Positions 1 to 16,795 of a stretch of 64,000 nucleotides of DNA are shown piece by piece. Under the pieces are notes generated by a model. That model saw nothing but the letters and a program-made list of their open reading frames with translations. It made no database searches and was not told where the DNA came from. The stretch comes from Actinocorallia herbida (GTDB lineage Bacteria; Actinomycetota; Actinomycetes; Streptosporangiales; Streptosporangiaceae). A program made the position numbers and the translations under genes. The DNA is taken from NCBI RefSeq assembly GCF_003751225.1, contig NZ_RJKE01000001.1, positions 8,990,001 through 9,054,000 of the forward strand, in the 5' to 3' direction. Position 1 is the first letter of the stretch; each line of letters begins with the position of its first letter.

Positions 1-1
1 C

Positions 2-1345
2 CTAGTGTCCTGCGCCTGAAATTCGTCGGCAAAATCGTGCGAGGGATTCGAGGATCTCTTCGGCGGTCTTGGTCCAGATGAAGGGCCGGGGGTTGCTGTT
101 CCAGTCGTTGATCCAGTCGCGGATGTCGGCTTCCAGGGCCTGGACGCTTTTGTGGGCGCCACGGCGGATCTTCTGGTCGGCCAGGAAGCCGAACCAGCGT
201 TCCACCTGGTTGATCCAGGAGGACCCCGTCGGGGTGAAGTGCATGTGGAAACGTGGGTGCTTGGCGAGCCACGCTTTGATCGCCGGGGTCTTGTGGGTGC
301 CGTAGTTGTCCACGATGAGGTGGACGTCCAGGTCGGCGGGCACGGTCTTGTCGATGGTGATCAAGAACTTCTTGAACTCCGCGGCCCGGTGCTGGCGGTG
401 CATCTGGCCGATGACGGTGCCGTCGGCGATGTCGAAGGCTGCGAACAGGGTGGTGGTGCCGTGCCGGGCATAGTCATGGGTGCGGCGCTCGGGCATGCCC
501 GGCATCATCGGCAGAACAGGTTGCGACCGGTCCAGCGCCTGGATCTGCGACTTCTCGTCCGTGCACAGGACCACCGCCTTCTCGGGCGGGTCGTGGTAGA
601 GGCCGACGATGTCGACGACCTTCTCGACCAGCAGCGGGTCGGTCGACAGCTTGAACGTCTCAGCCCGGTGCGGCTTGAGCCCGAAATCACGCCAGATCCG
701 GCCGATCGTCGACTTCGACAGGCCGCTGCGCTCGGCCATCGACGCCCGCGACCAGTGTGTGGCGTTCTTCGGCGTCTCCTCCAACGTCGCCACCACCACT
801 TCCTCCACCTGATCCAGAGTGATCGACGGAGGCCGGCCCGGCCGCTCCTCGTCCATCAACCCATCCAACCCCAGCCGGACGAACCGGCCACGCCACTTGG
901 AGACGGTGGAGGCGTCCACCCCCAACCGGGCGGCGACGTCCTTGCTGCTCATCCCGTCCGCACACGCCAATATGATCTTCGCTCGCATCGCCAGGACCTG
1001 CGCGGACTTCGCCCGCCGAGCCCACCGCACCAGCACCACCCGCTCATCATCACCCACCCTCAGCACGGCCTTGGGCCGGCCCTCCCGAGGCGCATCCAGC
1101 AACCCCTCCACCCCACCGCGCGCGAACGCCGCCCGCCACTTGCGCACCGTCGTCACCGACACCCCTAGATCACGCGCCACCCGCGCGTTACTCGCCCCGG
1201 GCTCAGCACACGCCAGCACGATCCCCACCCGAAGAGCCAACGCCGACGACTCCACTGACACACCCACCAACCGCGCCCGCTCGACCTCACCCAGCTCGAT
1301 CTCGACCGCAGCAGGACCCCGATTCGCCATAACAACACGATACAT
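2..1345 (-). CDS. IS630-family transposase
   Basis: Catalyses cut-and-paste movement of the surrounding element. The protein is up to 447 aa. It has two N-terminal helix-turn-helix repeats with GRP linkers (roughly residues 25-95 and 105-175) that would bind the terminal repeats. A DDE catalytic domain follows: first Asp in [10 protein letters not shown], second Asp in [11 protein letters not shown], Glu in [15 protein letters not shown]. This is the normal family length with all three acidic residues present. Two starts are possible, ATG at 1345 or at 1330 (MANRGP); the second looks more typical. The stop codon TAG overlaps the flanking target TA, so the very last codon is supplied by the insertion junction. 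Confidence 0.93.
5..26. repeat. IS630 terminal inverted repeat, left end
   Basis: These 22 bp are the exact reverse complement of 1355-1376 and are preceded by the TA target dinucleotide at 3-4. Confidence 0.93.
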
Positions 1346-1354
1346 ACTTAACCA

Positions 1355-1376
1355 ACGAATTTCAGGCGCAGGACAC
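1355..1376. repeat. IS630 terminal inverted repeat, right end
   Basis: Exact reverse complement of 5-26, followed by the TA at 1377-1378. It lies upstream of the transposase start, so the transposase promoter probably sits in or beside it. Confidence 0.93.
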
Positions 1377-1379
1377 TAG

Positions 1380-1812
1380 TGGCGTGTCACGCAACCTTGG
1401 TCGGGTAGCTGGTCCAAGAGCTGATCGAGGATGTGCACCACGACCACCTCCCAGAACGAGCCTGGGGACAAGGCTGCCGCGCTCACCCTCCTAGATCAAA
1501 TAGCGCAGGAACGTTCGGGGACGGGCCACTAGACCGGGTACCGGTCAGACGGCTTTGCCGCTGGTGCCGTGTGCCCCCGCTGTTCGCCTCCGCTATCTGA
1601 CCGACTCAGTCTCGCGGCAGCTCCTTGACCCGCTGATCCGTGCCCTGGTGATCATCATGGTGGGGCGCGGCGTCCTTATGATCCATCCCGGACGGGGTCG
1701 CGTCCGGGAGCGGACTTGCATCTTATGGAAGCGAACAAGGTCGAGTTCGATCGGTACATCCGAGAATGTCGAGGCATCCTGGTTTGAGAGGTGAGACCAT
1801 GGTGCGTCCAGG
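1380..1812. other. Intergenic stretch between IS630 and the first accessory gene
   Basis: No convincing gene is seen on either strand. Short open frames here have neither a ribosome binding site nor a recognisable product. The stretch must hold the promoter of the gene at 1813 and might contain decayed sequence from the IS target. Confidence 0.5.
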
Positions 1813-3183
1813 ATGGTCGTCTGCGGAGGTCGTGTGTCTAGTACTTCTGTCTCTGATTCATCGAACTCGGCCAAGTCGCGCCTTGGGAGAGCGGTGCTCT
1901 TCCTGTGGCAACAAGAACCGATGATCACCCAGCAGGTTATACGCGCCGACATCGGAGTGTTGCTGCTCACCGGCCAGGCAATGGACTTCGCGACGCGACT
2001 AAAAGGCTATAACCGCATCACCAACCCTGATCTGGTCAAAAACTTCGCCCGCCTCGTGGGACTCGGTGAGCGTCAGCTTTACAAGGACGTCCTGCCGATT
2101 CTGAAGGCTTGCGATGTAATTGATTTCGAAGTCGATCAACATGGACAGATCAAATACGTCGAAGAGTTCGTCGGTGTGACCGGCAGCGTGATCAGTCAAA
2201 CGTTCAAGGTGCTGGACAGCCTGAAACCTAGCGACTCAGAGATCGCGTTGCTCCACAGCATAGAGATCGCATCTTGGGCACCACTGACCACGTCACAGCA
2301 CCTTCAACAGATCACTAATCGAGTGTCCGTTGGTGATGAATCCGCTGCTCGAGGACTGAAGTATGCGTTTGCAATCGGGATTAACCAGCGGATTCTCTCG
2401 AAGGAGCTGAATGAGGAGGTCGTCTTCAATCCTCATGTCTGGGGTACGCGGCAGGTAGAGATTGCATCGTTCCTCCAGAATCTCCCACCTAACGAGCGTG
2501 ATGCACTGCTCGGTATCTGTGAGTCGGTCACCGCAAAGCCAGGTTCTACCTTGGATTCACTCGGCGGAGAATCGAAGATTCTGACAGGTGCGCGGAAGGT
2601 TGGCCTAATCCAAGCAGCGACGGTCAAGTCCAACGCTTACGGGAAGAACCTGACCCAGACCTATGCGTTCTCCCCGCTTATCCAGACGAGTGACGACCAG
2701 GCCAGCACAACGGAAGCGCTTCACCTCAGAAAGCTCTTCATCGCTCACATCCTGTTCGGCCGTGAGAAGGCGGCTCTTGGCCGCGGGAGGATCATGGATC
2801 CGGTGGTTCTAGTCGGGAGCCTGTTGCGGCGAGGCCAAGTCGGTCCCGCAACTAACATCGGCACCGACTACCACATGCTCGAAGCGGCAGGCGTCGTCCG
2901 AGTCGAAGGCGATCCAGGCCAGCGGGCGTACCTCAAACTCATCAAGGAGGACATCGTGAGCGACGGCCTGGACTGGCTAAAGGCCAGCCTCGGATCCATC
3001 CAAGGTGGCTCTGGAGACCTCACAAAACTGGCCAACGCCCCGGGCGGGTTCGTGACGCCAGAGCGAGATCGTTCTAGCATCCCCGATGATGCGGCGTCTG
3101 AGGAGATCCTCACGTCGACCATCCTCGAGCTAAGGAAGGAGGCGCAGCGTGCAGTCCGCCACCAAAGCCCCTTCAACAGGTGA
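1813..3183 (+). CDS. Uncharacterised protein, possible multi-winged-helix partner of a nuclease-like protein
   Basis: Family not recognised. The 456-aa product is soluble, with no signal peptide or membrane segment. It is rich in short helical blocks of the winged-helix type (for example NFARLVGLGERQLYKDVLPIL near residues 75-95), so DNA binding is possible but unproven. The start is uncertain: ATG 1813 has a poor ribosome binding site, and in-frame GTG 1894 or ATG 1921 (MITQQVIRAD) could be used. The stop overlaps the next gene by 35 nt, so the two are probably translated together. Base composition is visibly less GC-rich than the chromosomal genes to the right, as expected for imported DNA. 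It could be the sensor or regulatory half of a two-gene conflict system. Confidence 0.75.
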   Translation: MVVCGGRVSSTSVSDSSNSAKSRLGRAVLFLWQQEPMITQQVIRADIGVLLLTGQAMDFATRLKGYNRITNPDLVKNFARLVGLGERQLYKDVLPILKACDVIDFEVDQHGQIKYVEEFVGVTGSVISQTFKVLDSLKPSDSEIALLHSIEIASWAPLTTSQHLQQITNRVSVGDESAARGLKYAFAIGINQRILSKELNEEVVFNPHVWGTRQVEIASFLQNLPPNERDALLGICESVTAKPGSTLDSLGGESKILTGARKVGLIQAATVKSNAYGKNLTQTYAFSPLIQTSDDQASTTEALHLRKLFIAHILFGREKAALGRGRIMDPVVLVGSLLRRGQVGPATNIGTDYHMLEAAGVVRVEGDPGQRAYLKLIKEDIVSDGLDWLKASLGSIQGGSGDLTKLANAPGGFVTPERDRSSIPDDAASEEILTSTILELRKEAQRAVRHQSPFNR

Positions 3184-4294
3184 CCGCCTCGAGGCGCGAG
3201 TGGCACAGGTTTGGTTCTGGGAGGGGTTCTACGCTCGCCGCGGCGTCAACTTCCAGCGCTATTATCAAGAGCCGCTGCAGGTTACGGATCTCGACCTATT
3301 TGCTTTTGACTTCAACCCCCAACTTGCGATTCGACGATACATCGGTGAGGTCAAGTCTGGTACTGGTAGATCTGCCCCCAAAGCTCTGGACCGGATCATC
3401 TGGCTGAGCGGGCTAAAGTCCCTTACCGGTGCCGATGCCGGTGAGCTAACGATTGCAGCCTCGATTTCTGCCAAAGCTCAGAGCCTGAGTCGTGGCTTGG
3501 GAATATCTGCTCAATCAGTTGAAGACGTGGAACGTCGTGAAAGCGATGCTGTCGGACCTCTAGCCGATCTTGGATCACAAGGTGTTAACGCCTTCATACT
3601 TGAGCAGACTGTCCGCCTAATCGCTAAGAAAAACATTGATTTGGAGCGTGCCTTTAATTTCCTGCGTGGTGAGGTTTACTTCCTCGATCCGTTCCTTGCG
3701 GCGAAGCAGCTGATCGACCTGCTTCGGAGGATTACTCTGCGGTGGACACCTCGCCTCCAGGATGGTGAAGAGATCGCCCTCCGATGGCTCGCTGCGGAGG
3801 CACTCAGCCTCCTGACACTGAATCTTGTCACTGTTGCGAGTGCTGCTATGGCCTTGGACCGGAAGAGCTGGAACGCCTATGTGATGGAGCGGTTGGCGGA
3901 AGGGGCAGTTCCCATGCGCCATATGCGCGCACTTTCAGACTCAGTCGACAAGTTTGTAGCAGGTGTCTTGTCTGCTGCTGGCGCCTCTCCTGAGATGAAG
4001 ACGGCGGCAATCGGCGCCTTCCTGCCCGAACCACCTGACTATGCCGAACCCTTTGCAGAACTCTGCTGGCGCCTCAAGAGCGATGCACCAGCTGCTCGAG
4101 CGCTTCCACGGCAGCTCGATTTCGTGGTCTACGAGAGGCTCGTTCACCAACGCCAGATCCACGAGATAGCTGCTGCCCGTCTTGGGGTGAACCGCGACAG
4201 TTCGATGCGTCTGATCCGGCTGGTCGTAGGCTTTGTCAGGGGGTGCGAAGCAAGCTTTGTAGATCTTGAGCGGGCTCTGACTGAGACCTCCTAG
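3149..4294 (+). CDS. Predicted PD-(D/E)XK nuclease-like protein, uncharacterised family
   Basis: 381 aa. The N-terminal 80 residues carry a pattern typical of the PD-(D/E)XK fold: acidic helix (E15, E25), then TDLDLFAFDF (D47, D49) on a beta strand, then IGEVKSG (E67, K69). This makes a DNA- or RNA-cleaving role plausible. The remainder is helical with no recognised domain. The start is GTG at 3149, preceded by a strong AAGGAAGGAGG ribosome binding site, and lies inside the previous gene (35-nt overlap), pointing to coupled translation. The pair ends convergently against the three-gene operon at 4323. The nuclease assignment is pattern recognition, not a database match. Confidence 0.75.
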   Translation: MQSATKAPSTGDRLEARVAQVWFWEGFYARRGVNFQRYYQEPLQVTDLDLFAFDFNPQLAIRRYIGEVKSGTGRSAPKALDRIIWLSGLKSLTGADAGELTIAASISAKAQSLSRGLGISAQSVEDVERRESDAVGPLADLGSQGVNAFILEQTVRLIAKKNIDLERAFNFLRGEVYFLDPFLAAKQLIDLLRRITLRWTPRLQDGEEIALRWLAAEALSLLTLNLVTVASAAMALDRKSWNAYVMERLAEGAVPMRHMRALSDSVDKFVAGVLSAAGASPEMKTAAIGAFLPEPPDYAEPFAELCWRLKSDAPAARALPRQLDFVVYERLVHQRQIHEIAAARLGVNRDSSMRLIRLVVGFVRGCEASFVDLERALTETS

Positions 4295-4322
4295 CTACCG
4301 ATCACTGCCGTTTTTGTCTGCC

Positions 4323-5048
4323 TCAGCTGGGCGTACGGAGGTCTGCGGCTAGGTCGTGCCAACCCATGGTCATAAAGTTCGCCTCGGTGATGCGGAGAAA
4401 GGTTTCTAGGCGGTCGGGTTCTTCATCCAACCGCTGAAGCAGGGTTGTGACCATCCGGGCGAAGCGGGTGGCCTGGTCTTCACCGCTGGACCAATGAGCC
4501 ACCATTGGGCGGATGATGTCATCGAACAGGCGCCAGGATGCGACCGGGTCAGGGGCGTTGAGAGAACGGTCGAGCCACCAGCGGCTGGCGGTGTCGATGT
4601 CTGCAAGGATCACGGCGGCCAAGTGGGTCATTCTCTTCTCGAGCAGTACCTGATCGAGTTGGGCGGCGCGCTGGGCGTCGAGATAGCTCTCTGTGCGGGC
4701 CGCGTCGGCCGGCGGGAGAACCAGGTCCAGTCGAGCCCTCACTTGGATCAAGGGGTAGTCGTCTGGGTTTCGCCAGTCAGCTAGTGCAAGGGCAGTGTCT
4801 TGCGCGGCCTCAGCCACGGCTTCCGGGGCGCTGAGGCGAGCCACATAACCGGCGAGCTTAATGGCCGAGGCTCGGGCAGCCGCCTGAGCCTCGGCCAAGA
4901 CCATGTGTTTTGCTGCTCCTGGCCTTGGGCGGTACCACACTGTTCCGGAGGCACTGAAAGAAATGCCGGGCACCGAGGTCGCGAGCGCCATGGAGAGACG
5001 GCTTTGACGAGTCCGCCGCAGCCTCTTTAGTTCACTCGCCCTGAACAC
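4323..5048 (-). CDS. SPFH/band-7-like protein, third gene of a putative conflict operon
   Basis: 241 aa from GTG 5048, chosen because AGGAGAG lies 5-6 nt upstream; a longer frame from 5147 has no such site. The start sits inside the end of the NTPase gene (overlap about 17 nt), so translation is probably coupled. The protein has a short beta-rich N-terminus (SFSASGTVWYRP). It continues with a long Ala-rich helix and a strand/helix segment (IQVRARLDLVLPPADAART) whose order resembles SPFH proteins. A helical tail with WWLDR follows. There is no transmembrane helix, which is unusual for membrane SPFH proteins but fits soluble forms near actinobacterial NTPases. The SPFH call is tentative. Confidence 0.7.
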   Translation of the reverse strand: MFRASELKRLRRTRQSRLSMALATSVPGISFSASGTVWYRPRPGAAKHMVLAEAQAAARASAIKLAGYVARLSAPEAVAEAAQDTALALADWRNPDDYPLIQVRARLDLVLPPADAARTESYLDAQRAAQLDQVLLEKRMTHLAAVILADIDTASRWWLDRSLNAPDPVASWRLFDDIIRPMVAHWSSGEDQATRFARMVTTLLQRLDEEPDRLETFLRITEANFMTMGWHDLAADLRTPS

Positions 5049-6882
5049 GGGCGCTCTCCTGCGATAGCTGGACAGCGCGCGCGAAGACCCGATCGCGGAA
5101 GTAGGTGGGATTAAGAGGACGTTTCGGCAGGAAGCTGCTGATGACATCGTCTCTTACCCATGGAGCTAGCACGGCACCGAGCACCTCCTCCGAGGCGTCC
5201 GCGGATAGATGCTCACCCTCCACTAGATTCACCCATGCTTCGATCGCGGCTTGAGCCACCATGCGGGTTTCGGTAAAGGTGAGGGAGCGGCAGAACGCCA
5301 GGATGATCGACTGGCGCACGATGCGATCTGCGAGTGCCTGACCGTGCTTGCCGCAGAGCAGCGCAACCCCGCTCCCACTCGAAGCCAAGCTCAGGAATGC
5401 GACGATCCCAGCCCGCTCGGACTTCACCGTATCGAGCCATGCGAACACTTTTTCGATGATCTTGGGTTGTGCAGTGGCCAGCGTGACAAACGCCCTGGCC
5501 ACTGCCTCGCTTCCTGGGTCTGGGGTCTTCAGCGCAGCCCAGTGGAGCCGGACCAACGCCATGTCTGGCTCGTGCTCACCGAATGGTCCGGCGCAGATGT
5601 CGGCGACGAGATCCACGAGGCTTTGGGATGGGGCTCCTGTCAGCCAGGTATATAGCCGACTCCGTACATAGCGGCCAAGCCGTGGGTCGAGGGCCGCTCG
5701 CGCGAGGGCCTGGACGGCAAGGGGCCGTCGTTCTGTCATCAGGCCGTCGCGCAGCCGATTTATGATCTTAGTATCGCGATAGAGGAGTGCAAGATCTAGT
5801 AGTGCGTCGACTACGCGCTCGGCGTCGTCTGCGGGGAGCCGGGCCGCCTGGTCGACAGCCCAGGCGGTGAGCAGATCCAGTAGGCGGGCTTCGTCCCAGA
5901 GGTGCCGTCGTACCGCCGATGCCAGTCCGTGATGAGTCGGAGAAAGGCGAACCCGGTCTCCGTAGCGCTCCACGGCTGCGTCCTTCAACCGCTGTGACGT
6001 GAACCTGCCCCCGAGAATGTCGGCGGGTTCTTGGCTGTATCCGAGACGTCGGAGGAGATCCTCCGCCATGTCGAGGACGGACGAACGCCTTCCGCCATCA
6101 CAGAACGCCGCCGACCACAGCAGCACTCTGATTTCGAGATCACCGGGAAAGTTCGCAGATAGCCAAGACTCCCAGTCGCCGTACTCGGCGATGATTCGTT
6201 CAACATCGGGGTCCGGGGCATCTCGGATAATGCGTGCCAGCCGGCAAGCGTCGGCGGCCTTCGGATTGGAGTCCCAGACATCCGCGAAGGCATGGCTATG
6301 GAGCAGGTAGGTGCGATCGTTTGATCCGAAGGCCAACAACTCTTGCTGGACCAGCTCCAGCGCATTCGGAGAGAAGTGAAGGACGGTCTGCTCCTTCAAC
6401 CGGTCCGCACCGGGTCCTTCCCAGGTGTTGGGGGCACCGAGTATCACCACGGCGACATGCCGATTCCGTGCCCAGGCGAGAAGATCTCTGCTGAAGTCCT
6501 CTGACGGCCTGTGTTCTGACAGGTCTAGGAGATAACCGTGCCCCTTGGCTACAGGAGGGAGCAGGCGCACCTGAGGGCGCGACCAGGTCGGCTCGAACTC
6601 GTGCAGTCGCTTGGAATCACAAAGATCCTGGAGCAGCCTCAGCCCGGCGGTGCGGCGGCCGGTCCCCGTATCGCCTAGCAGGACGAGGACCTGGTGGCCG
6701 CGGAGCAGATTCGGTGCGCTCGCCCAGTCCTCGCCTGTCGGGTCGATGAACCTTCCATCGGCACAAGCGGCGAGCTCCTCACTGAGGACGTCTCGGATCT
6801 CAACGAAATCTTCGCCATAATGGAAGTTCTGAATGCCCGCGACGAACGCGGTTCCGCCGTCGTATACCTCAAGAGAAGTCAT
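5032..6882 (-). CDS. P-loop NTPase with variant Walker A, STAND-like conflict protein
   Basis: 616 aa. Residues 70-78 read GDTGTGRRT, a Walker A loop with Arg where the catalytic Lys normally sits. A hydrophobic strand ending VVILGAPN (about 145-155) could be the Walker B region. The C-terminal half is all-helical, like the repeat scaffolds of STAND sensors. The first 22 residues contain GGTAFVAGIQNF, which resembles the C-terminus of the upstream nuclease. It lies 27 nt downstream of that nuclease gene and overlaps the SPFH-like gene. The likely role is the nucleotide-dependent sensor or switch of the system. Function is inferred from architecture and neighbours only. Confidence 0.8.
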   Translation of the reverse strand: MTSLEVYDGGTAFVAGIQNFHYGEDFVEIRDVLSEELAACADGRFIDPTGEDWASAPNLLRGHQVLVLLGDTGTGRRTAGLRLLQDLCDSKRLHEFEPTWSRPQVRLLPPVAKGHGYLLDLSEHRPSEDFSRDLLAWARNRHVAVVILGAPNTWEGPGADRLKEQTVLHFSPNALELVQQELLAFGSNDRTYLLHSHAFADVWDSNPKAADACRLARIIRDAPDPDVERIIAEYGDWESWLSANFPGDLEIRVLLWSAAFCDGGRRSSVLDMAEDLLRRLGYSQEPADILGGRFTSQRLKDAAVERYGDRVRLSPTHHGLASAVRRHLWDEARLLDLLTAWAVDQAARLPADDAERVVDALLDLALLYRDTKIINRLRDGLMTERRPLAVQALARAALDPRLGRYVRSRLYTWLTGAPSQSLVDLVADICAGPFGEHEPDMALVRLHWAALKTPDPGSEAVARAFVTLATAQPKIIEKVFAWLDTVKSERAGIVAFLSLASSGSGVALLCGKHGQALADRIVRQSIILAFCRSLTFTETRMVAQAAIEAWVNLVEGEHLSADASEEVLGAVLAPWVRDDVISSFLPKRPLNPTYFRDRVFARAVQLSQESARVQGE

Positions 6883-6909
6883 GGCTTCTTTCTGGCGTGT
6901 CGGCGAGCG

Positions 6910-7815
6910 TCAGCGTCCGAACTGGGGGTTGTTGAAGGTTTGGTTCTCAGCCGCGAAGACCGTTCCTGAGTGGTTCACGATGGTGAACCGAGGAGAGGAG
7001 GAAGGCGCGGTTGCCGCATTTTGGTGGAGCGGAAGATCGATGCCGTGTGCGCGGAGCAGCTCGGCCCGGACTCGGGCGGCATCCACCTGCCCGGCACGTG
7101 GACCAAGCTCCTGGGCGAATGCGCAGAGCAGGTTCAACAGGTCCGAGGATGTACGGTCGCAAGCCGACGCGAGGTCATCTAGAAGATCCAGTTCCTCCCG
7201 CCAATCAGAACCTTCCGGACCTACGTCGACCCGCCACACATGCAGCCCGGCAAGGATTCGGTGGGAGAGCGCTTCTGCCTGAGCTCCATCAGAGATCGAC
7301 ACTGCGGTTGCGACGGCCTTCACGACATGGCTGTGACGGATCCGCAGTTCTTCGCGGGTGACTCCTGGACGGAGTAGTCGTGCCAGTGATTCGTGATCGC
7401 GACGGGCTCGGGCCATCTCAGTGAGTTCCGAGAGGGGGCCGGTACCGTCATCGTCGCCGACCGCTAGCCCGAGCAGAAGACGACCCTTCACCAGCTCCTT
7501 GCCTCGTGTCTGACAGACCCCGGCTGCTGTTCGCATCACCTTGATGAAGTCGGCGTCAGAGCCCGTGATCCGCAGTCGCCGCTTCACCTGGATCTCAATT
7601 GATGGAGCCGGATTCTCTCCGCCCGCTGTGACCACGATGTCGTCGAAGTCCCGACCGTCGATACCCTGCTGGAGTTCCACCCACCCCATGGGGAGTCGCA
7701 TGCCGATCGGCACGAGCGCGCCCCGCAGCAGGCGCCCCAGCAGAACCGCCGCCACCCTGTACTCGAAAATCGTCCCAGCACCGCCCGTCGCGATGGGCGA
7801 GACCCCATCACTCAT
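6910..7815 (-). CDS. Predicted DUF4297/Cap4-like nuclease, first gene of a putative conflict operon
   Basis: 301 aa from ATG 7815 (MSDGVSPIATGG); the open frame extends to 7938 but that part looks non-coding. Residues 11-80 follow the pattern of Cap4/DUF4297 dsDNA endonucleases: GG-x-G-x-x-FEYR (E18), DFDD (D58, D59), then SIEIQVKRR with the QxK variant (Q76, K78) of PD-(D/E)XK. The rest is helical. The last residues, HSGTVFAAENQTFNNPQFG, form a short beta-like motif similar to the N-terminus of the next protein. It is followed after 94 nt of non-overlapping frame shift by no other gene on this strand except the NTPase, 27 nt on. It is the probable effector of the operon. The ribosome binding site at 7815 is weak, so the start may move. 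Confidence 0.78.
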   Translation of the reverse strand: MSDGVSPIATGGAGTIFEYRVAAVLLGRLLRGALVPIGMRLPMGWVELQQGIDGRDFDDIVVTAGGENPAPSIEIQVKRRLRITGSDADFIKVMRTAAGVCQTRGKELVKGRLLLGLAVGDDDGTGPLSELTEMARARRDHESLARLLRPGVTREELRIRHSHVVKAVATAVSISDGAQAEALSHRILAGLHVWRVDVGPEGSDWREELDLLDDLASACDRTSSDLLNLLCAFAQELGPRAGQVDAARVRAELLRAHGIDLPLHQNAATAPSSSPRFTIVNHSGTVFAAENQTFNNPQFGR

Positions 7816-7990
7816 GTCAAGCACGCCCCATTTCGTCTTGGGAATCCCCTGGCTGTTAACTCTACGAGTCCGTACTGACAAAACTGGGTGGGTTCCTGAT
7901 ATCGAGCGGCTGGCACGGGCGGGCGACCGTCCTGCCATGACATTGGTGCATGCCGAAATCGATGGACTCGCCAGCCCGAATCTGGAGCGT

Positions 7991-8413
7991 CTACTTGGGG
8001 TGGCGGGCTGCGGTTCGGCGGAGGTGGCTGGTGAGGTCGGTGATCTGGCGGGAGGGAAAGTGCAGGCTCGCGTGCGGGAGCGGGCCGGTGGAGCGGAGGC
8101 GGATGTTGGATGCCCAGCCGTTGCCGGGGCGTAGGGGTTCGGCGATGTTCAAGAGGATCTGCATGTCGGTGGGGGGCATGGTGAGCCAGGCGAAGCCGGT
8201 ATAGAAGGCGGCGTAGCGGTTCCATCGGTTGGGTGGGATGGCGGCTCCGCCTTGGGCGAGGGATTCTCCGGCGTTCTGGCAGCACATGGCCGTGTCGAGG
8301 CCGAGTTCCCATATGGCCGAGACGAGGTCGGTCATTCCCTCGTCTATGGCGACCGTGGTGCCGTCGGGCTTGGTGATGCTCTTGGTCAGGTGGACCTGTC
8401 GTGGTTCGTGCAT
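7991..8413 (-). CDS. Uncharacterised small actinobacterial protein
   Basis: 140 aa, family not recognised. Residues MTDLVSAIWELGLDTAMCCQNAG suggest a helix followed by a Cys pair; the rest is mixed alpha/beta with Trp/Tyr-rich segments. The start ATG 8413 lies 28 nt inside the phosphotransferase-like gene, so it is the last gene of the minus-strand operon that begins at 11815. No signal peptide is present. A link to the kinase-like neighbour is likely from the overlap but its nature is unknown. Confidence 0.7.
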   Translation of the reverse strand: MHEPRQVHLTKSITKPDGTTVAIDEGMTDLVSAIWELGLDTAMCCQNAGESLAQGGAAIPPNRWNRYAAFYTGFAWLTMPPTDMQILLNIAEPLRPGNGWASNIRLRSTGPLPHASLHFPSRQITDLTSHLRRTAARHPK

Positions 8414-9204
8414 GGGAGTCCTCGACGGTATTCGGCCCAGTGGCCGGTGATGTCCTGGAGTTCTCGGGCCCAGGGCTCGGCTATGCGGTCGGCGGCGGCG
8501 TTCCAGAAGGCCGCGTTCATCTCGGCGAAGTCCGTGAGAGCCGCTGTGGGGAGGCTGGTCCAGGTCGGAAAGCGGGAGAGCCATGCTTCGGCTTGCTCTG
8601 GGGTGTGGCCGGCTTTGAGGAGCCATTGGACGAGGAGGGCGAGTTCGGTCCAGGCGGCGCCTCGGCTGGCGAAGCCCCAATCGACGACGAAGACCCGATC
8701 GTCGGGGGTGATGAGGACGTTGCCGGGGTTGAGGTCGGCGTGGATGACGGTGTCGCCTTCGAGGGCGGAGATGTCGCCCAGGTCCGTCCAGCGGCGTCCG
8801 GTGGGGATCTTCAGGTCGGGGGCGTCGATCGTCTGGAGGAGGTGGATGACCGATTCCAAACGGGCGAGGTCCGGAGAGCCAGGCTGGTAGTCGGCGTGGC
8901 GGGCCTCGATGTGTTCGTAGGCGAGGAGGTGCCAGCCCTCGGCTTCCACGTTGTGCAGAAGCCGAGGGGCCAGGCCGACGACGGCGGGGTTGATGCGGGC
9001 TTCGCGCCGGAGGGCCCATAGGTCCGGGGTTTCCGGGTCGGTCTGCATGCCTTTGAGGAAGAGGGTTCGGGTCGCGGTGTGGAGGACGGCGGTGATGTCG
9101 GAGTGCTCGCCCACGTGGTGGGGGGTGGCGTGTTCGACTCGGCCGGTGTGCTCCTCGATGGCGGCCCGGGTGTTGGGCGGCAGGTCTTCCCAGGTGCGGC
9201 GCAT
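8386..9204 (-). CDS. Aminoglycoside phosphotransferase (APH)-family kinase
   Basis: 272 aa, the normal length for APH/choline-kinase-like enzymes, which move a phosphate from ATP to small molecules. The Brenner-type catalytic loop HADLNPGN (H155, D157, N162) and the metal-binding VVDWGFAS (D175) are present. The ATP-binding Lys is probably in TLFLKGM (K51). The start ATG 9204 is 11 nt after the stop of the preceding gene. The longer frame up to 9789 is not coding. The substrate cannot be read from sequence. Many actinobacterial members sit in HTH-regulated operons like this one and are not proven resistance genes. Confidence 0.85.
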   Translation of the reverse strand: MRRTWEDLPPNTRAAIEEHTGRVEHATPHHVGEHSDITAVLHTATRTLFLKGMQTDPETPDLWALRREARINPAVVGLAPRLLHNVEAEGWHLLAYEHIEARHADYQPGSPDLARLESVIHLLQTIDAPDLKIPTGRRWTDLGDISALEGDTVIHADLNPGNVLITPDDRVFVVDWGFASRGAAWTELALLVQWLLKAGHTPEQAEAWLSRFPTWTSLPTAALTDFAEMNAAFWNAAADRIAEPWARELQDITGHWAEYRRGLPCTNHDRST

Positions 9205-9215
9205 GATCGTGAACC

Positions 9216-9707
9216 TTAGGCGGCGAGGCGGGTGACCTTCAGGTAGCAGTTGTCGGTCTGGCAGCAGCTTGTGCCCTGCTCCCACATGGCGGGGTCGACG
9301 GGCCAGCCGTAGAAGGCCATCGCGGTGGTGGTGAGGGTGACGGACTTGCCGGTGCGGATGTCGTCGTGGGTGACGGGGGCGTGGTCGAGGAAGGCTCCGT
9401 CGGTGAGGTCGGCGCAGAAGGCGCGGTAGTCGGCGGTGAAGTCGAGGAAGTAGTGGATCGCGGGGTCCACGGCGGCCGACGGGGTGAGGTAGGTGAACTC
9501 GTGGCCTTCCTGGAGGAGGCCGGCGGGAGGGTTCTCGGGGTCGTAGGCGGCGACGGTGGCCATGTAGGCGAGCATCTGCTCGACCATCGTCTCGGCATAG
9601 GTCGTCGCGACGGGCATGTGCTCCTGAATACGGGCGACGATCCTGCCGAACAGGTCCGCGGAAACGCGGTCGCGGGGCGTCCTGGTCCTGGTGTCCTCGG
9701 TGATCAC
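9216..9707 (-). CDS. Uncharacterised protein in HTH/2H/APH operon
   Basis: 163 aa from GTG 9707, selected because GGAGAGGAA lies 6-7 nt upstream; an ATG at 9794 is open but has no ribosome binding site. Family not recognised. The C-terminus contains a Cys cluster (TSCCQTDNCYLKV) that could bind metal or form a disulfide. There is no membrane segment. Position between the 2H phosphoesterase and the APH-like kinase suggests a shared pathway. Confidence 0.7.
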   Translation of the reverse strand: MITEDTRTRTPRDRVSADLFGRIVARIQEHMPVATTYAETMVEQMLAYMATVAAYDPENPPAGLLQEGHEFTYLTPSAAVDPAIHYFLDFTADYRAFCADLTDGAFLDHAPVTHDDIRTGKSVTLTTTAMAFYGWPVDPAMWEQGTSCCQTDNCYLKVTRLAA

Positions 9708-9830
9708 AAGCGTTCCTCTCCATCGAGCGGGCATCTTGCTGCCGTGATCCGCCCCGCTCCCGGAGGCCGGGAGCGGAGCGGATCGCCACGGCAAGTGAAC
9801 GTCGGCGCGGGAGGAGACGGGCAGAGGAGA

Positions 9831-10541
9831 TCAGAGGAGACGGTCGTTCAGCGGAAGGGAGTGCAGGACCGTCCAGCGGTAGGCAGCGTCTTCCCTGCGG
9901 AGTTCCACCAACTCGACGGACCTCACCGCGATCCGTACTGGAAGTAGGGCGTGGAGCGAGAGGAGGTAGGGAAGGAGGTCTTGGGCGGGGCGGGGGCGGT
10001 TGTTGTAGGCCACGCCCAGGTGGGGACGGAAGCTCGGCGTCGGACGGCCGCCGGGAACTCCCGCTCTGGCATTGGCGGTGGTGAGGGTCTGATGGAGGTC
10101 GGCCAGGTGGTGCCAGGGCGTGATGGTGAAGCGGGCGGCCCCGCGTGACCCGATGAGGGGATGGGCGGTAAGGGTGAATCTCGTGGGGAGCGTTGTGGCG
10201 GCCAGGTCGGCGAGCTGGTTCGGAGTGACGCGGTCGGTCTCGCCGATCTTGGTCATGGTGATGTGGAGGCCGTCTTCGGGGATGTTGTCCATGCCGAGCG
10301 GTGCCAGGGCGTCCTGGCAGTGGCGGGCGAGCTTTAGCAGGTCAGGAGCTTCGGGGAAGGTGAGCATCCAGTAGTAGGCGCGGTATTCGGGATGCCAGCG
10401 CGCTCGGTCCCAGTGGTCCTTCATCGTGTCGAGGTCCCGGTAGGCGTCCCAGTCCCGGGTCAGGATGGCAGCCGGATCGTGCAGGTCAGAGGGCGGAGCG
10501 GCGGGGAAGGACTCCTCGTCGTGGTGTAGCCGGGGCGTCAT
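9831..10541 (-). CDS. 2H phosphoesterase superfamily protein (2'-5' RNA ligase-like)
   Basis: 236 aa. Two H-x-hydrophobic motifs typical of the 2H fold are visible, LHITMTKIG (H93) and RPHLGVAYN (H174), the second with Gly where Thr/Ser is usual. Family members hydrolyse or ligate 2',3'-cyclic or 2'-5' linked nucleotide phosphodiesters. The start ATG 10541 overlaps the stop of the upstream regulator as ATGA, so expression is coupled. A 123-nt gap separates it from the next gene. The longer open frame running to 11186 is antisense or out-of-frame to the regulator and was not used. The RNA or nucleotide substrate is unknown. Confidence 0.82.
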   Translation of the reverse strand: MTPRLHHDEESFPAAPPSDLHDPAAILTRDWDAYRDLDTMKDHWDRARWHPEYRAYYWMLTFPEAPDLLKLARHCQDALAPLGMDNIPEDGLHITMTKIGETDRVTPNQLADLAATTLPTRFTLTAHPLIGSRGAARFTITPWHHLADLHQTLTTANARAGVPGGRPTPSFRPHLGVAYNNRPRPAQDLLPYLLSLHALLPVRIAVRSVELVELRREDAAYRWTVLHSLPLNDRLL

Positions 10542-11815
10542 GGTGCTGTCTTGGCGGTGTGGCGGGTGCGGGCTGTGGCCTTCCACGAGGCGAGGCGGTG
10601 ACGGAAGCCGATTGCCTCCGGCGTACTGCTCCAGCGGGAGGCTTTCTGGGCGAGTTCCTCGGCCCGCTGCCCGATGGACTTGATGGGTGCGGAGACCGTC
10701 ATGCACAGGGCCTGGTGTCCGAGTTCCAGGGCGCGGCCCACGTCTGGGTCTCGTTGGGTGAGGAGCGCGCTTGCGGTGTCGAGGCGGAGGAGTGCCTTGC
10801 TCCAGCGGGAGTCGGACTCCTCCACGAGGGGATCGAGGGCTTCGGCGTGCTCCAGGACCTGGGTGTGGTCCCCGAGGGACAGCAGCGCGGTCGCGGCGTT
10901 GGCCATGGTGCGGGCCGGGCTGTACGGGGTGAAGGCGACGCATGAGGACATTCCTCCGGGCAGGCCTTCCGAAGTATCGGACAAGGTCAGCGCCTCCTCG
11001 ATCCGTCGCCGAGCCTCCGTATTGTGCCCGGTCGTGCGGGCGAGTGCCCGAGCCCGTCCGTTGACGAGGAGCCTGATGGCCTGCGGGTTGGACGGAGCGA
11101 GCCTGATCCCGGCCGCGGCGGCGTGGTCGGCATCGGCGTAGCGGCCTTGGTAGTAAAGCCCGAACGAGCGGGTCCCCATCGTCCACATCGCCAGCTCGAC
11201 GTCTTCGGCCTCACGCGCGAGAAGCTCGGCCTCGGTGCAGTAGGCGTCGCACAATGACGGTTTGTCGAGGTTCACGGCCATGTAGGCGAGCAGCCCTGAA
11301 ACTTTCGCCGCCAGGCGGAAGAGGGCGCGGCGCTGCCTGGCCGACTGTCGGCCGTCGAGGAGGCCGTGCAGGGTCTGCCGCAGCAGAAGCATCCGCTGGG
11401 CCAGCGGCCAGGGGCCTTCGCCCTCGTAAGCGCCGACGACCCTCGCGATCGACAGTTCAGCATCGTCGAGCACGGCGTCATCCACGTTCGAGTACGTCAG
11501 AGCGCGCGCCCGAGCGACGATCCGCGTGGCGTCCTCATCCTCCAGAGAAGACGCCGCGCCTTGCCGTTCGCCGTTGAACGCGATCTCCCACACCCGCCGG
11601 TATAGCTCGGCGTAGACCGGCCCTGGGCGGTGTTCTCCCCGCTCGTGGAACCGGATCTCGCGGACGATCGAGTCTCGGCTCGGGAGCTGCGCTCTCGTCT
11701 TCTCATCGGCTGCCAGGAAGAGCCGGCGAGCGAGCTCCTTCTGGCTCCAGCACAGGCGATGGCGCCGGGTTCGGATCTCTTCCGCCCAGGGAGGTCTTAC
11801 CGCGTCCTGGCCCAT
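10538..11815 (-). CDS. HTH transcriptional regulator with TPR-like helical sensor domain
   Basis: 425 aa from ATG 11815. The N-terminus (residues 10-75) is an XRE-like HTH with WSQKELARRLF. The rest is a string of about 34-residue helical pairs of the tetratricopeptide type, as in many actinobacterial regulators that govern short metabolic operons. It opens the five-gene operon 11815-7991 and overlaps the 2H phosphoesterase start (ATGA). It faces the divergent anti-sigma-like gene at 12020, with about 200 bp between that could hold both promoters. It probably autoregulates. The larger open frame reaching 12943 crosses two other genes and was rejected. Confidence 0.85.
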   Translation of the reverse strand: MGQDAVRPPWAEEIRTRRHRLCWSQKELARRLFLAADEKTRAQLPSRDSIVREIRFHERGEHRPGPVYAELYRRVWEIAFNGERQGAASSLEDEDATRIVARARALTYSNVDDAVLDDAELSIARVVGAYEGEGPWPLAQRMLLLRQTLHGLLDGRQSARQRRALFRLAAKVSGLLAYMAVNLDKPSLCDAYCTEAELLAREAEDVELAMWTMGTRSFGLYYQGRYADADHAAAAGIRLAPSNPQAIRLLVNGRARALARTTGHNTEARRRIEEALTLSDTSEGLPGGMSSCVAFTPYSPARTMANAATALLSLGDHTQVLEHAEALDPLVEESDSRWSKALLRLDTASALLTQRDPDVGRALELGHQALCMTVSAPIKSIGQRAEELAQKASRWSSTPEAIGFRHRLASWKATARTRHTAKTAP

Positions 11816-12019
11816 GTGCTCCTCATCGTCTTCGACGGTGGGATTCTCGCTGGTCTCCTCCAGTCTCCTCCTGACGTCGCCTTGTGCGCAGGTATTCGCT
11901 TTGAGTGATGGGCCCGGTGCCGAACACATCGGTCGGGTTCCGGTGGAACGCCGCCAGTTCGCGTAGGCGGGCGGCCTCCACGCCGACTCCGCAACCCCGA
12001 TTCCTGCATGGAGAACGAC

Positions 12020-12472
12020 ATGACATCGGTCCTCAGCACACCGAGCCTGAGAGAGGGCGAATGGCTGCGTGCCCGGGGCGCACGCGTCTGGAGGGCGACG
12101 TTCCCGGGACACCTCGATCAGGTTCGGCGCGCTCGTGCCTTCGTCAGGATACTGCTCGCGGGAACCGGTCTCGAAGACGATGCCGCCCTCATCGTCACGG
12201 AGCTGGCGAACAACTCCCTCCAGCACACGAGGTCGGGCGCGGACGGAGGATGGTTCGGCGTCGAAGTCGTCGCCGATGGTGCCCGAGTGATCGTCTCCGT
12301 CACCGACCAGGGAGCCAACAGCGCACTCGCCTGGGAGAACTCCGGGCCGCTCGCCGAGGAGGGCCGCGGTCTGTTCATCGTGGCCGACCTGGCCGCGTCG
12401 CACGGGACCCGGACCGAGCCGGGAGCGGGGCACACCGTCTGGGCGGAGCTGATCGGAGAAACCGGAGCGTAG
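12020..12472 (+). CDS. ATP-binding anti-sigma-factor-type protein (HATPase_c_2)
   Basis: 150 aa. A GHKL/HATPase domain of the RsbW/SpoIIAB kind: N-box VTELANNSLQH (about 60-70), G1 box VTDQG, G2 box GRGLFIV, and the C-terminal HTVWAE typical of Streptomyces-type members. Such proteins bind ATP and control sigma factors or anti-sigma antagonists by phosphorylation. ATG 12020 is preferred over ATG 12008 because GGAGA lies 5-6 nt before it. It is divergent from the HTH/TPR regulator and convergent with the DUF6879 gene 19 nt downstream. No cognate sigma factor is adjacent. Confidence 0.87.
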   Translation: MTSVLSTPSLREGEWLRARGARVWRATFPGHLDQVRRARAFVRILLAGTGLEDDAALIVTELANNSLQHTRSGADGGWFGVEVVADGARVIVSVTDQGANSALAWENSGPLAEEGRGLFIVADLAASHGTRTEPGAGHTVWAELIGETGA

Positions 12473-12491
12473 GGCCACTTTCGGAGCGGAT

Positions 12492-13070
12492 TCAGTCGGT
12501 GGATATGCAGTAGTCGGCGTGGTCGGTCGCGCGGCCCCACACCGTCTCGAAAGCCGAGGTGCAGAACTCGACGATGGCGGGTTCCTCGGTGAACTGATGG
12601 CCGACGAGGGCACCGTCTCCGTCGAAGATGGAGAAGCGGACCAAGCGGCCGTCGAAGACCCAGAACGGGTTTCCGGGCAGAGCGAGTGCTGACGCGCGTT
12701 CGCGAGGAAGCCAGCGGACGAGTTCCTCTGCGGCGATGTTGTGCGGTTCGGTGAGGCTGTGTTCCCAGCGCACATAGTCGGATACCGGCTCTGACACGAT
12801 GCGGGCCCTTCGGGCGACGACGCCCCTGGCGACGGTGTCCGAGACCAGCGCGCGGAACACGCGGTACGGCTCGGTGTCCTCCTCGTGGGGCTGCCCGGCT
12901 TTCCACGCAAGGAACGCCGGGTCCGTGGTGAGGTGCCGATCATGCATCTCCAGGTGTACCGCTGAGGTGACGCACTCGGAGAGCAGTTCAGCGAACGTCG
13001 GTTTACTCGCGCTCGGTCCGATCGTCTTCATCGGACCAAGGCTGCCGGCAGCCCTGCTCGCAATCTCCAT
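12492..13070 (-). CDS. DUF6879 family protein
   Basis: 192 aa from ATG 13070 (MEIASRAAG); ATG 13106 and ATG 13031 are alternatives. The sequence follows the DUF6879 pattern closely: SAVHLEMHDRH near the start, RRARIVSEPVSDYVRWEH, then EELVRWLPRERASALALPGN and FWVFDGRLV, ending with AFETVWGRATDHADY. These proteins are widespread in actinobacteria, often beside HTH-DUF5753 or DUF397 genes, and their biochemical role is unknown. Here it is flanked by two HATPase genes, suggesting a regulatory switch cassette. Confidence 0.88.
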   Translation of the reverse strand: MEIASRAAGSLGPMKTIGPSASKPTFAELLSECVTSAVHLEMHDRHLTTDPAFLAWKAGQPHEEDTEPYRVFRALVSDTVARGVVARRARIVSEPVSDYVRWEHSLTEPHNIAAEELVRWLPRERASALALPGNPFWVFDGRLVRFSIFDGDGALVGHQFTEEPAIVEFCTSAFETVWGRATDHADYCISTD

Positions 13071-13280
13071 TCGATAACCCCTGATCTTCAGTGGCAAGTC
13101 TGGCAAAGTCGGACTACGGACTCGCTTCCTTGAATATTACATATTCCAGATCGCTCTTCATTTATCTCAAGGTCGGACTTGACGCAATTTGCCGAGTCGA
13201 TTCCTCATGGTCCCCGGTTCGTCTGTTCGGTGCTACGCCGTGTGTGCGGTGGCGGGCGGGTCGGGGAAGTGAGGGAATCG

Positions 13281-13742
13281 ATGGGTGTTGAACTCGAACG
13301 TGGGCACGGGCCTTGGGAGTCGCCGGAGAGCGGCACGTTCGTTGGGCAGCAGCGGTATGCGTGGTACGCGAGTCAGGCGGCGTTGGCGCGGATGTACGCG
13401 CGGCGGATGCTCGGGCCGCGTTGCGGGTTCGATTCCGAGCTCGTCGCGGCGGAGCTGGTCTCCAACGCGATCCGGCACACGGTCTCGGGGGCCAGGGGCG
13501 GGCACTTCGTCGTTTACGTCATGCTCGGCCGCACGCCGGGCATCGCCGTGCAGGACCTCGGCGGGTCGGGGGCGCCGCGCGTTGGAATGCGCCAGGAAGG
13601 GCGGTTCAGTGAGGGCGGGAGGGGGCTTGAACTGGTGACCAGGCTCGCCGTTCGATCCGGTTACTGGGGGGACGAGCGTGAGGGGCACACCGTCTGGGCC
13701 GAGCTTCGGTCCTTGCCCTTCTCCGAGCCGATGGCCGGGTAG
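13281..13742 (+). CDS. Second HATPase_c_2 anti-sigma-type protein
   Basis: 153 aa from ATG 13281, preceded by GAGGGA at suitable spacing; the open frame reaches back to 13179 without support. N-box VAAELVSNAIRHT, G1 box VQDLGGSG, G2 box GRGLELV and the terminal GHTVWAELR show a complete ATP-binding fold. It resembles the gene at 12020 in layout but differs enough to be an old paralogue. A strong hairpin follows the stop directly, so this is a single transcription unit. Confidence 0.86.
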   Translation: MGVELERGHGPWESPESGTFVGQQRYAWYASQAALARMYARRMLGPRCGFDSELVAAELVSNAIRHTVSGARGGHFVVYVMLGRTPGIAVQDLGGSGAPRVGMRQEGRFSEGGRGLELVTRLAVRSGYWGDEREGHTVWAELRSLPFSEPMAG

Positions 13743-13743
13743 C

Positions 13744-14879: not shown

Positions 14880-15093
14880 TACCTCGCTCGCCAGGTCCAG
14901 GGCTCGGTTCGCCGACGAGGCTCCGGTGCTGCTGTCCGTCCCGATCGTCTGTGCGGAGCTCGGGATCACACGGTCGACCTTCTACGACTGGAGGGCGAAG
15001 GGGAACGCGCCTCGGTGCGTGAAGCTGCCCAACGGGTGCATTCGGGTGCGGCGGGCCGATCTCGACCTCTGGCTCACCGAGCGGGAGGGGTGA
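14872..15093 (+). CDS. xis: AlpA/excisionase-like HTH protein
   Basis: 73 aa from GTG 14872. A MerR/AlpA-type winged helix fills it: VPIVCAELGITRSTFYDWRAKG then the wing PNGCIRVRRADLDLWL. Such small proteins bind the element ends and direct the integrase towards excision. It overlaps the frameshifted gene by 8 nt and ends five bases before the integrase start, the standard xis-int arrangement of actinobacterial integrative elements. Confidence 0.85.
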   Translation: MSDTSLARSRARFADEAPVLLSVPIVCAELGITRSTFYDWRAKGNAPRCVKLPNGCIRVRRADLDLWLTEREG

Positions 15094-15098
15094 GGCGG

Positions 15099-16571
15099 GT
15101 GAACCACGGCACGACCTTCAACGTTCGGGTGCTGGCGATCGAGAGTCGCGTCAATGCCCGGGGCGAGGTGACGTCGTATCGGGCGGCGTGGAAGGTGGAC
15201 GGGAGGAAGTTCACCGAGACATGCAAGAACCTTGCGCAGGCCGACGCTTACCGGAGCAGGATTCAGACGGCGGCGAAGAACGCGGAGCCGTTCGACAAGG
15301 CCACCGGGCGTCCGGCCTCGTGGACGTTGGTCGTCGATGAGACGCCGACGATGGGCTGGTACGAGCTGGCGACCAGGTTCATCGACATGCGCTGGCCGGA
15401 CATCTCGGCCAAGCACCGGTTCGGCTTCTCCTACCTGCTGGCGAACGCCACGTTCGCGATGCTCCGCGAGTGCGACTGCCCGTACACCGCCAAGGAGGTG
15501 CGGACGGCACTGCGCCGGTGGGCCTTCAATACCAAGCACCGCGCCAACGCGCCCGACGAGCAGCGGCAGATCCTCGCGTGGGTCGGGGACAACTGCGAAG
15601 ACGTCGGCTGGCTGGCGAAGCCCGGCAACGCGCGGGAGCTGCTCAACGCGGCGATCAACAAGCTCGACGGGACGCGTGCTTCGGCGAAGACCGCGCGCAA
15701 GCACGTCTACATGCTGAACAGCGTGATGCGGTACGCGGTCGAGCTTCAGCTTCTCGACTCCGATCCGATCAAGAGCCTGAAGTGGGAGCCTCCCGCGAAG
15801 GCGGTTCTTCAGGTGGATCGGCGGTCGGTCGTCAACCCGCATCAGGCGAAGCTTCTCCTCGACGCGGTCTATGGCCGTAAGCCGAGTGGCGCGTACCTGA
15901 TGCCGTTCTTCGCGACGCTCTACTACTGCGGTCTTCGCCCTGAGGAGGCCGTCGACGTCAGACGGCATGAGCGGACGCTGCCCGGCACCGACGAGGAGTG
16001 GGGCGAGTTCTACCTGACCCGCGCGGCCCCGGATGTCGGACGGGACTGGACCGACTCCGGCGAGGCCCGCGATGACCGGGGGCTCAAGCACCGGGCGAAA
16101 GGTGAGGGGCGCCCGGTTCCCATCCCGCCGCCCCTGGTCGCGATCCTCCGCCGACACGAGAGGGACAACGGGCTCGGGCCGGATAACCGGATCTTCTTCG
16201 GAGTGCAGCGCAAGGTGCTGTCCACGAGCACGATCCAGCGGCTCTGGGGATTGGCCAGAGAAGACGCCCTTACAGAAGAAGAGCAGGCGTCGCCGCTCGC
16301 GGCCAGGCCCTACGACCTCCGTCACGCCTGCCTGTCGACCTGGCTCAACGCCGGAATCTCGGCGACTCAGGTCGCGGAGTGGGCGGGTAACAGCCCCATG
16401 GTCCTCATGACGACCTACGCCAAGTGCCTCACCGGGCAAGGCGACATCGACAAGCAGAAGATCATGAAGGTCCTCGGCGACGGCGCTTGGAAGGGGAAGC
16501 CTCTCGCGCTGGTTCCTCCGCTGCCCGCACCACGGGCCCCGTCAGGACAGCCGGGCCGTCAGGTGGTGTGA
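15099..16571 (+). CDS. int: Tyrosine recombinase / site-specific integrase
   Basis: 490 aa from GTG 15099, preceded by GGGAGGGG; the frame opens at 15015 but overlaps xis. Catalytic residues are all seen: Arg in YYCGLRPEEAV, a Lys-bearing strand HRAKGEGRPVPIP, HxxR in YDLRHACL, Trp in EWAGNSP and the nucleophile Tyr in TTYAKCL. An N-terminal arm-binding and core-binding domain occupies residues 1-270. It inserts or excises the element by strand exchange at tRNA att sites. The gene runs towards tRNA-Arg, whose 3' end begins 180 bp downstream. Confidence 0.93.
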   Translation: MNHGTTFNVRVLAIESRVNARGEVTSYRAAWKVDGRKFTETCKNLAQADAYRSRIQTAAKNAEPFDKATGRPASWTLVVDETPTMGWYELATRFIDMRWPDISAKHRFGFSYLLANATFAMLRECDCPYTAKEVRTALRRWAFNTKHRANAPDEQRQILAWVGDNCEDVGWLAKPGNARELLNAAINKLDGTRASAKTARKHVYMLNSVMRYAVELQLLDSDPIKSLKWEPPAKAVLQVDRRSVVNPHQAKLLLDAVYGRKPSGAYLMPFFATLYYCGLRPEEAVDVRRHERTLPGTDEEWGEFYLTRAAPDVGRDWTDSGEARDDRGLKHRAKGEGRPVPIPPPLVAILRRHERDNGLGPDNRIFFGVQRKVLSTSTIQRLWGLAREDALTEEEQASPLAARPYDLRHACLSTWLNAGISATQVAEWAGNSPMVLMTTYAKCLTGQGDIDKQKIMKVLGDGAWKGKPLALVPPLPAPRAPSGQPGRQVV

Positions 16572-16702: not shown

Positions 16703-16709
16703 AAATGCG

Positions 16710-16744: not shown

Positions 16745-16750
16745 GTGCTG

Positions 16751-16795
16751 CGCACCCGAAGGGATTCGAACCCCTAACCTTCTGATCCGTAGTCA
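16751..16795. other. Putative attachment site (att) in the 3' half of tRNA-Arg
   Basis: Inferred from position only. Actinobacterial tyrosine integrases encoded next to xis commonly recombine in the 3' end of a tRNA gene, restoring it on insertion. The tRNA is intact here. A second copy of this segment should mark the other end of the element; none was seen elsewhere in the window, so it would lie left of position 1. Confidence 0.35.

Follow-up and report, generated by a model that had tools for sequence, protein, structure and literature searches.

We analysed a 64,000-nucleotide stretch of the Actinocorallia herbida genome (contig NZ_RJKE01000001.1, positions 8,990,001 to 9,054,000; hereafter the window), in which three consecutive genes, A, B, and C, form an operon at 4323-7815. 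We consider it fairly likely that this operon encodes an immune receptor in split form whose signalling depends on a short motif of the amyloid type, with B as a probable STAND NTPase, C as its constant partner, and A as the effector. In our best reading, it would be a nuclease-armed variant of the BASS-like (bacterial amyloid-signalling) NLR systems that also has a conserved third subunit, C, and its organisation points to a possible self-defence circuit that resembles, in its wiring, the amyloid relays by which animal and fungal cells die. A preliminary description of the same DNA had pointed out the three genes; we add that a paired end motif links the first gene to the second, that the first gene is exchangeable, and that the second and third form the core.

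The link between effector and receptor was assessed on non-redundant pairs. From 55 B loci we set aside 5 without an upstream open reading frame (ORF) candidate, 6 near duplicates, and 3 with non-credible upstream ORFs, leaving 41 pairs in which adjacency of effector and B is given by construction. By eye, the C-terminal end of an effector resembles the N-terminal end of its own B, as in GEHGVQTYNL/GKHGIQAYNL (L054), GPVNTGRGHQY/GPVNSGEGHQY (L124), and GDDVQAAIGNTVAGDL/GDGAQAAIGNRVSGDL (L089). The mean local score of own pairs was 47.5, compared with 25.9 for other partners, and none of 20,000 partner permutations reached the observed sum. The same was true of permutations within first-pass effector classes (0/20,000; mean 1339, standard deviation 70, observed 1948). 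Taken class by class, shuffles as good as the observed pairing numbered 0 of 20,000 for the cyclase class (12 pairs), 2 for the class of other effectors (9 pairs), 116 for TIR (6 pairs), and 288 for small proteins (7 pairs). An internal 60-residue segment of the effectors, used as a control, gave no signal (22.7 own vs 21.9 other). When similar receptors were thinned to 36 pairs, a set that does not contain the window's pair, again 0 of 20,000 permutations were as good. Chance resemblance of the motifs was rejected by partner permutation, with both 41 and 36 pairs, and by shuffling of B N-termini.

The window's own motif reads GTxFxAxxQxF, and both copies are listed in Table 1. With a profile made from the other six A tails only, residues 8-22 of B scored 21.2 and the next place in B 8.0; 2 of 5000 shuffled B N-ends reached 21.2. 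When each A tail was left out of the profile applied to its own receptor, all seven nuclease-type receptors fell within the top 8 of 41, the eighth being the cyclase-type receptor of L052, which has a similar motif. The A tails scored 35.0 on nuclease-type receptors vs 23.1 on the others. As judged from these alignments and scores, the same short motif is present at the C-terminal end of the effector and the N-terminal end of the receptor.

Genome searches for B and C covered the window's family or class. B was detected in 50 of 341 family genomes (E ≤ 1e-10), and A in 14 of 338 (E ≤ 1e-5). The preliminary description had named rare co-occurrence of the three genes as a ground for refuting its proposal; the opposite was found. 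Seven of the 14 A matches are stand-alone genes, B directly follows in all seven, and C follows B in six, the contig of the seventh (L033) ending there. Of the remaining seven matches, six are found close to the N-terminal end of long open frames (700-1764 aa), and the last (L077) is partial. A sample of the class contained A in 5 of 394 genomes, namely the window's own gene, three long frames, and one match near a contig end; the C profile gave 25 matches in 23 of the 394. We fetched 19 of these C loci, holding 20 matches (G000, G317, and G120 had been collected before, as B loci; G125 and the second match of G491 were left out). B stands directly upstream of C in 18 of the 19, as judged on stop-to-stop frames; in the exception, L129, a long unrelated frame precedes C. 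The coupling of the genes exceeds chance because the order A-B-C or B-C recurs in other genomes, and because B is directly upstream in 18 of the 19 C loci, we conclude that B-C is the core of the system. In one locus (L122, 834-3747, minus strand), two C-like frames lie in tandem behind a single B, and the C next to B is a second copy.

In front of this core, the first gene varies. With cyclase and TIR models based on 13 and 6 of the effectors, respectively, we counted 17 cyclase-like, 9 TIR, 7 nuclease A, and 8 unclassified genes in first position in the 41 loci. TIR_2 in L120 scored 35.3 bits against a cut-off of 28. The cyclase-like identity of the 17 is probable; the label comes from one profile match (E 6.2e-4) to 3mr7, a class III cyclase structure, designed armadillo proteins scored nearly as well (0.002), and five members scanned singly (L038, L054, L044, L084, L122) had no Pfam match. 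The unclassified genes are seven small proteins (145-196 aa), which by eye we take to be BELL-like, and a 385-aa ORF in L050 that may not be the true partner. In L054 (5717-10678), a PycTM gene (PADLOC, 4.8e-37) and a Crp/Fnr gene come before the cyclase-like first gene of a B-C locus, and L052 has a similar order by eye; a receptor-driven Pycsar relay in L054 is possible. We give an even chance to a more general view, in which B and C are a distinct receptor core of actinomycete amyloid signalosomes and effectors plug in by matched tails. These effectors would be nucleases in this operon, TIR enzymes where C is anchored in the membrane, small proteins resembling BELL, and cyclase-like enzymes, which may relay to a Pycsar-type second messenger and membrane effector.

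Protein A was modelled with AlphaFold2 from nine sequences (predicted local distance difference test score [pLDDT] 81.6; predicted template modelling score [pTM] 0.78). The PD-(D/E)xK nucleases are defined by an alpha-beta-beta-beta-alpha-beta core with a D...(E/Q)xK site. The model follows this order (helix 13-31, strands 42-48, 60-64, and 72-80, helix 88-109, strand 113-121), and T10, G11, A13, G14, E18, D58, D59, Q76, and K78 are invariant in nine sequences, Dyella and a deltaproteobacterium among them, with D58/D59 preceding the second strand and Q76-V-K78 lying within the third. The predicted element order and the D58/D59/Q76/K78 site support membership of the PD-(D/E)xK superfamily, and the nuclease fold expected in the preliminary description was borne out at the level of a structure prediction. 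The tail (266-301) mostly has pLDDT below 50, with predicted strands at 277-281 and 285-289. The proposed DUF4297/Cap4-like identity (PF14130), by contrast, was rejected. Pfam at E ≤ 10 gave no Cap4 match on seven A members, just scattered single-member matches (best E 0.088), and hhalign gave 0.1-0.2% against a shallow profile of three of the five Cap4_nuclease members over the cut-off (L163 and L164 were left out). A itself had no Pfam, PADLOC, or NCBIfam match at E ≤ 1, no match was found among PDB sequence profiles, and no relatives were found in viral contigs.

Protein B is firmly a P-loop NTPase, with the Walker A motif GDTGTGRR and a conserved LLDLSE. That it is of the STAND type is probable, as judged from its relatives: nSTAND3 matches weakly in 10 of 13 of them (best E 0.0016), exceeds its curated cut-off in that of L132 (31.8 vs 27.2 bits) and falls just under it in that of L128 (27.1), while in the genome search both pass it, at 33.9 and 29.1 bits. 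The profile-profile probability between B and two nSTAND3 proteins was 55-77%, that of unrelated pairings at most 0.7%. Of the STAND-like P-loop NTPase named earlier, the P-loop is clear and the STAND part is probable, with reservations that are given below. No informative match to B was found in PADLOC or NCBIfam, none among PDB sequence profiles, and no relatives in viral contigs or phages; the window's B sequence alone retrieved no relatives from genome contigs.

Protein C had been called SPFH-like, and sequence comparison lent this no support. Pfam at E ≤ 10 on 12 C members gave no family over its cut-off and no Band_7, just four unrelated families, each in a single C member (best E 0.022), and hhalign against 18 of 20 fetched Band_7 (PF01145) loci gave 0.2% or less; we rejected an SPFH identity by sequence. 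C itself had no informative match in Pfam, PADLOC, or NCBIfam, and PDB sequence profiles returned five unrelated chains alone (best E 0.041). A model of modest quality (four sequences; pLDDT 71.8, pTM 0.47) predicts strands at 14-23 and 30-41, helices at 51-72 and 75-88, a strand at 101-110, and a long helix at 113-149. A strongly hydrophobic N-terminal stretch (KD19 1.9-2.8) is present in 14 of 44 C-family genes: those of all nine TIR-type loci among the 41 pairs, of L121 and L123 (near duplicates of L124), of the cyclase-type L122, of L125, whose first gene was not assigned, and of L129, which has no B. The other 30, the window's C included, have KD19 ≤ 1.5, and the nuclease-type and other cyclase-type loci examined lack the stretch. 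This distribution would suit a subunit that acts as scaffold or sensor and whose placement depends on the effector. Most likely, we infer, C is a regulatory or sensing subunit of B.

The closest published counterparts are the BASS NLR systems (primary source Dyrka et al. 2020), which we compared through excerpts of PMC7889193, PMC8086366, and PMC12261475. As described there, adjacent or overlapping genes encode an NLR that has the motif at its N-terminus and an effector that has it at its C-terminus, mainly in actinobacteria and cyanobacteria, and the effectors of these two-gene clusters are BELL and, less often, CHAT and TIR. Going by these excerpts, the window shares the adjacent genes, the effector-C/receptor-N motif, an NTPase receptor, multicellular actinobacterial hosts, and several kinds of effector including TIR, but differs in its nuclease effector, its nSTAND3-like receptor, and its third conserved gene. 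By analogy of layout and matched motif, the operon would work like a BASS-type signalosome. The word "nuclease" does not occur in PMC7889193, PMC12261475, or PMC8086366, and among the best-ranked titles and abstract openings of the literature searched, neither a nuclease effector bearing a matched amyloid motif nor a version with three genes came up, which does not establish their absence from print. The EAD ternary conflict systems (Kaur et al.; excerpts of PMC7159879 and PMC8195603) also have an adaptor on both receptor and effector, exchangeable effectors, and multicellular bacterial hosts, but their adaptor is a globular domain where that of the window is a motif of about 15-25 residues, and the window lacks MoxR-vWA. 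"Amyloid" occurs in a reference title of one of these two papers and is absent from the other. With Avs and other nuclease-STAND fusions the operon shares a nuclease-type effector domain coupled to a STAND-type NTPase, probable in the case of B, and the A domain itself occurs in such fusions; an Avs, however, is one large STAND protein to which effector and sensor repeats are fused, whereas the operon has three separate chains with matched motifs, a B of 616 aa, no Cap4 similarity, and the extra subunit C. The likeness to Pycsar concerns the sister locus L054 with its cyclase-like, PycTM, and Crp/Fnr genes, not the window's own system, and differs in that the motif there links the cyclase-like gene to the B receptor.

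If the proposed reading is true, the window holds, to our knowledge, the first amyloid-wired nuclease, and bacterial amyloid (prion-type) immune signalling, so far linked to TIR effectors and to those that kill through the membrane, would extend to DNA cutting. A single receptor core, with a third subunit of its own, would be rewired to different effectors by changing a tail of 15-25 residues, and the operon would offer a compact system for asking whether bacterial amyloid motifs work in phage defence.

In the proposed mechanism, B with its constant partner C would keep the system off. Once an invader is sensed, B would bind NTP and oligomerise, as STAND proteins do, gathering many copies of its N-terminal motif. 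The clustered motifs may then template the same motif in the disordered A tail, by analogy with the BASS, HET-s, and RHIM systems; the nuclease domains of A would be gathered and activated by proximity, and would cut the DNA of the invader or, as abortive infection, of the host. Amyloid is proposed here because the layout equals that of BASS systems.

Several results count against this reading. The own B ranked first in only 17 of the 41 pairs (top three in 27); own partners ranked 34-39 in L038, L048, L050, and L127 (no match) and 20 in L035; and the window's own pair was 12th of 41 by pairwise score (29). Own pairs of the nuclease class (7 pairs) scored 32.9 and swapped pairs 35.0, with 17,066 of 20,000 shuffles as good; the class fails to discriminate own partners because a single motif is common to all seven. 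The window's B itself had no Pfam match at E ≤ 1, nSTAND3 included, and the nSTAND3 matches in its relatives were short, spanning positions 1-43 of 155 alone. The STAND assignment is further weakened because the nSTAND3 model, which matches in 80 of 80 genomes, also matches in 14 of 14 control genomes, over its cut-off in 7 of them. PADLOC gave no match at E ≤ 1 for five window proteins (A, B, C, and the products of two genes at 1813-4294).

The A domain is also found in single chains, fused to NB-ARC and TPR in L071 (39.6 vs 23.5 bits), to a PADLOC STAND_TPR protein in L075 (1.6e-110), to AAA/STAND-like giants in L072 and L073 (weaker matches), to pentapeptide repeats in L074, and to a TPR protein in L076; L144, L146, and L147 are long A-domain frames without a Pfam match. 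Nine fusions were scored (L072-L076 and L144-L147; L145 and L071 are one and the same place), and none showed a comparable motif, the best score anywhere being 13.6; the tails and N-ends of the split systems score 18.3-38.8 but are themselves part of that profile. Such an absence would be expected of a motif that stands in for a covalent link. The fusions are also consistent with A and B forming a stable split Avs or NLR, in which the end motifs would serve for ordinary short-range docking (the two proteins might, for example, pair by strand addition) and keep A inactive until B releases or activates it by a conformational change, with no amyloid involved. Matched motifs need imply contact only. 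Against such docking, the motif copies on the two partners are self-similar, as homotypic assembly requires and a docking pair need not be, and the arrangement of adjacent genes with effector C-end and receptor N-end motifs is that published for BASS in the excerpted PMC7889193. We regard docking as the strongest alternative, although an unlikely one.

Amyloid-type signalling was also weighed against a module for plasmid exclusion or of a restriction-like kind, in which foreign DNA is recognised by C or B and cut directly by A, and the motif resemblance is an incidental bias towards G, N, and Q. A nuclease and an NTPase on a mobile island would suit such a module. Partner permutation and shuffling keep composition, however, and still reject chance, and relatives of this B-C core follow first genes of the TIR and cyclase-like kinds, whose products do not act on DNA; a restriction-type complex was rejected on these grounds and is very improbable. 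Least probable of all is a role outside immunity, in which the operon would regulate development or stress responses in filamentous actinomycetes and happen to use a STAND-type switch: B was seen in actinomycetes alone, in genome searches of the window's family or class and in all 11 records with B of a plasmid collection, but nucleases, TIR, and, in L054, a Pycsar-type membrane effector are typical of defence, and the distribution is patchy and the location an island.

Table 1. Features of the operon and of the island that carries it (window coordinates)
Feature	Position	Strand	Remarks
Gene A, effector	6910..7815	-	301 aa; ATG at 7815; putative PD-(D/E)xK-type nuclease domain (residues ~1-265) and disordered tail
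Gene B, receptor	5032..6882	-	616-aa P-loop NTPase, probably STAND type
Gene C	4323..5048	-	241 aa from a putative GTG start at 5048; conserved partner of B
Effector-side motif HSGTVFAAENQTFNN	6928..6972	-	A residues 282-296; C-termini of 7 stand-alone A proteins align here
Receptor-side motif DGGTAFVAGIQNFHY	6817..6861	-	B residues 8-22; best match in 616 aa to the A-tail profile
Tyrosine-integrase-like gene of the island	15015..16571	+	Phage_integrase E 6.1e-5, 23.3 bits, under the 27.1 cut-off
tRNA-Arg	16750-16823		Adjoins the integrase-like gene
Attachment-like repeat	16750..16792	-	3' part of tRNA-Arg, right island end; 43-bp exact repeat
Transposase DDE_3 of the insertion sequence	2-1345		Pfam match

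The three ORFs were confirmed as overlapping or nearly touching: 27 nt separate A from B, and C, read from its putative GTG start, shares 17 nt with the end of B. The A start is backed by homologues starting at the same place, its ORF being open upstream to 7938; that of C is open to 5147. The GC (guanine plus cytosine) content is 0.628 for the operon, 0.643 for 1-16750, and 0.712 for 16824-64000, in agreement with the lower-GC DNA described before. The operon sits in an integrated island of about 17 kb at tRNA-Arg, as recognised by the repeats of the 3' part of this tRNA and by the integrase-like gene, which together with the tRNA spans 15015-16823. The left copy of the 43-bp repeat begins 166 bp outside the window (genome position 8989835), and another copy lies at 8988581. 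The insertion sequence and the integrase-like gene, described earlier as beside the operon, are in the same island, but lie 3 kb and 7 kb away, respectively. The three copies of the 43-46 bp repeat (window 1-16792 and genome 8988581-8990000) may reflect two neighbouring integrations.

The island holds a second overlapping two-gene pair on the plus strand, at 1813-3183 (456 aa) and 3149-4294 (381 aa), for which Pfam, PADLOC, and NCBIfam gave no family over its cut-off. The 381-aa protein has a GEVKSG stretch and looks nuclease-like by eye; it has plasmid-borne relatives in Streptomyces anulatus (60.5% identity) and Pseudarthrobacter (39.0%), both of which also overlap an upstream gene of similar size. 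We regard the two genes as a candidate undescribed pair. Also within the island are a DUF6879 gene (12492-13106, minus strand; 4.6e-49) and a HATPase_c_2 gene (13179-13742, plus strand; 7.7e-7). Elsewhere in the window, two divergent NTPase genes were found, one at 49354-51912 (minus strand) with DUF7779 and TPR and with NB-ARC just under its cut-off (22.1 vs 23.5 bits), the other at 52314-54260 (plus strand) with nSTAND1 (2.4e-28).

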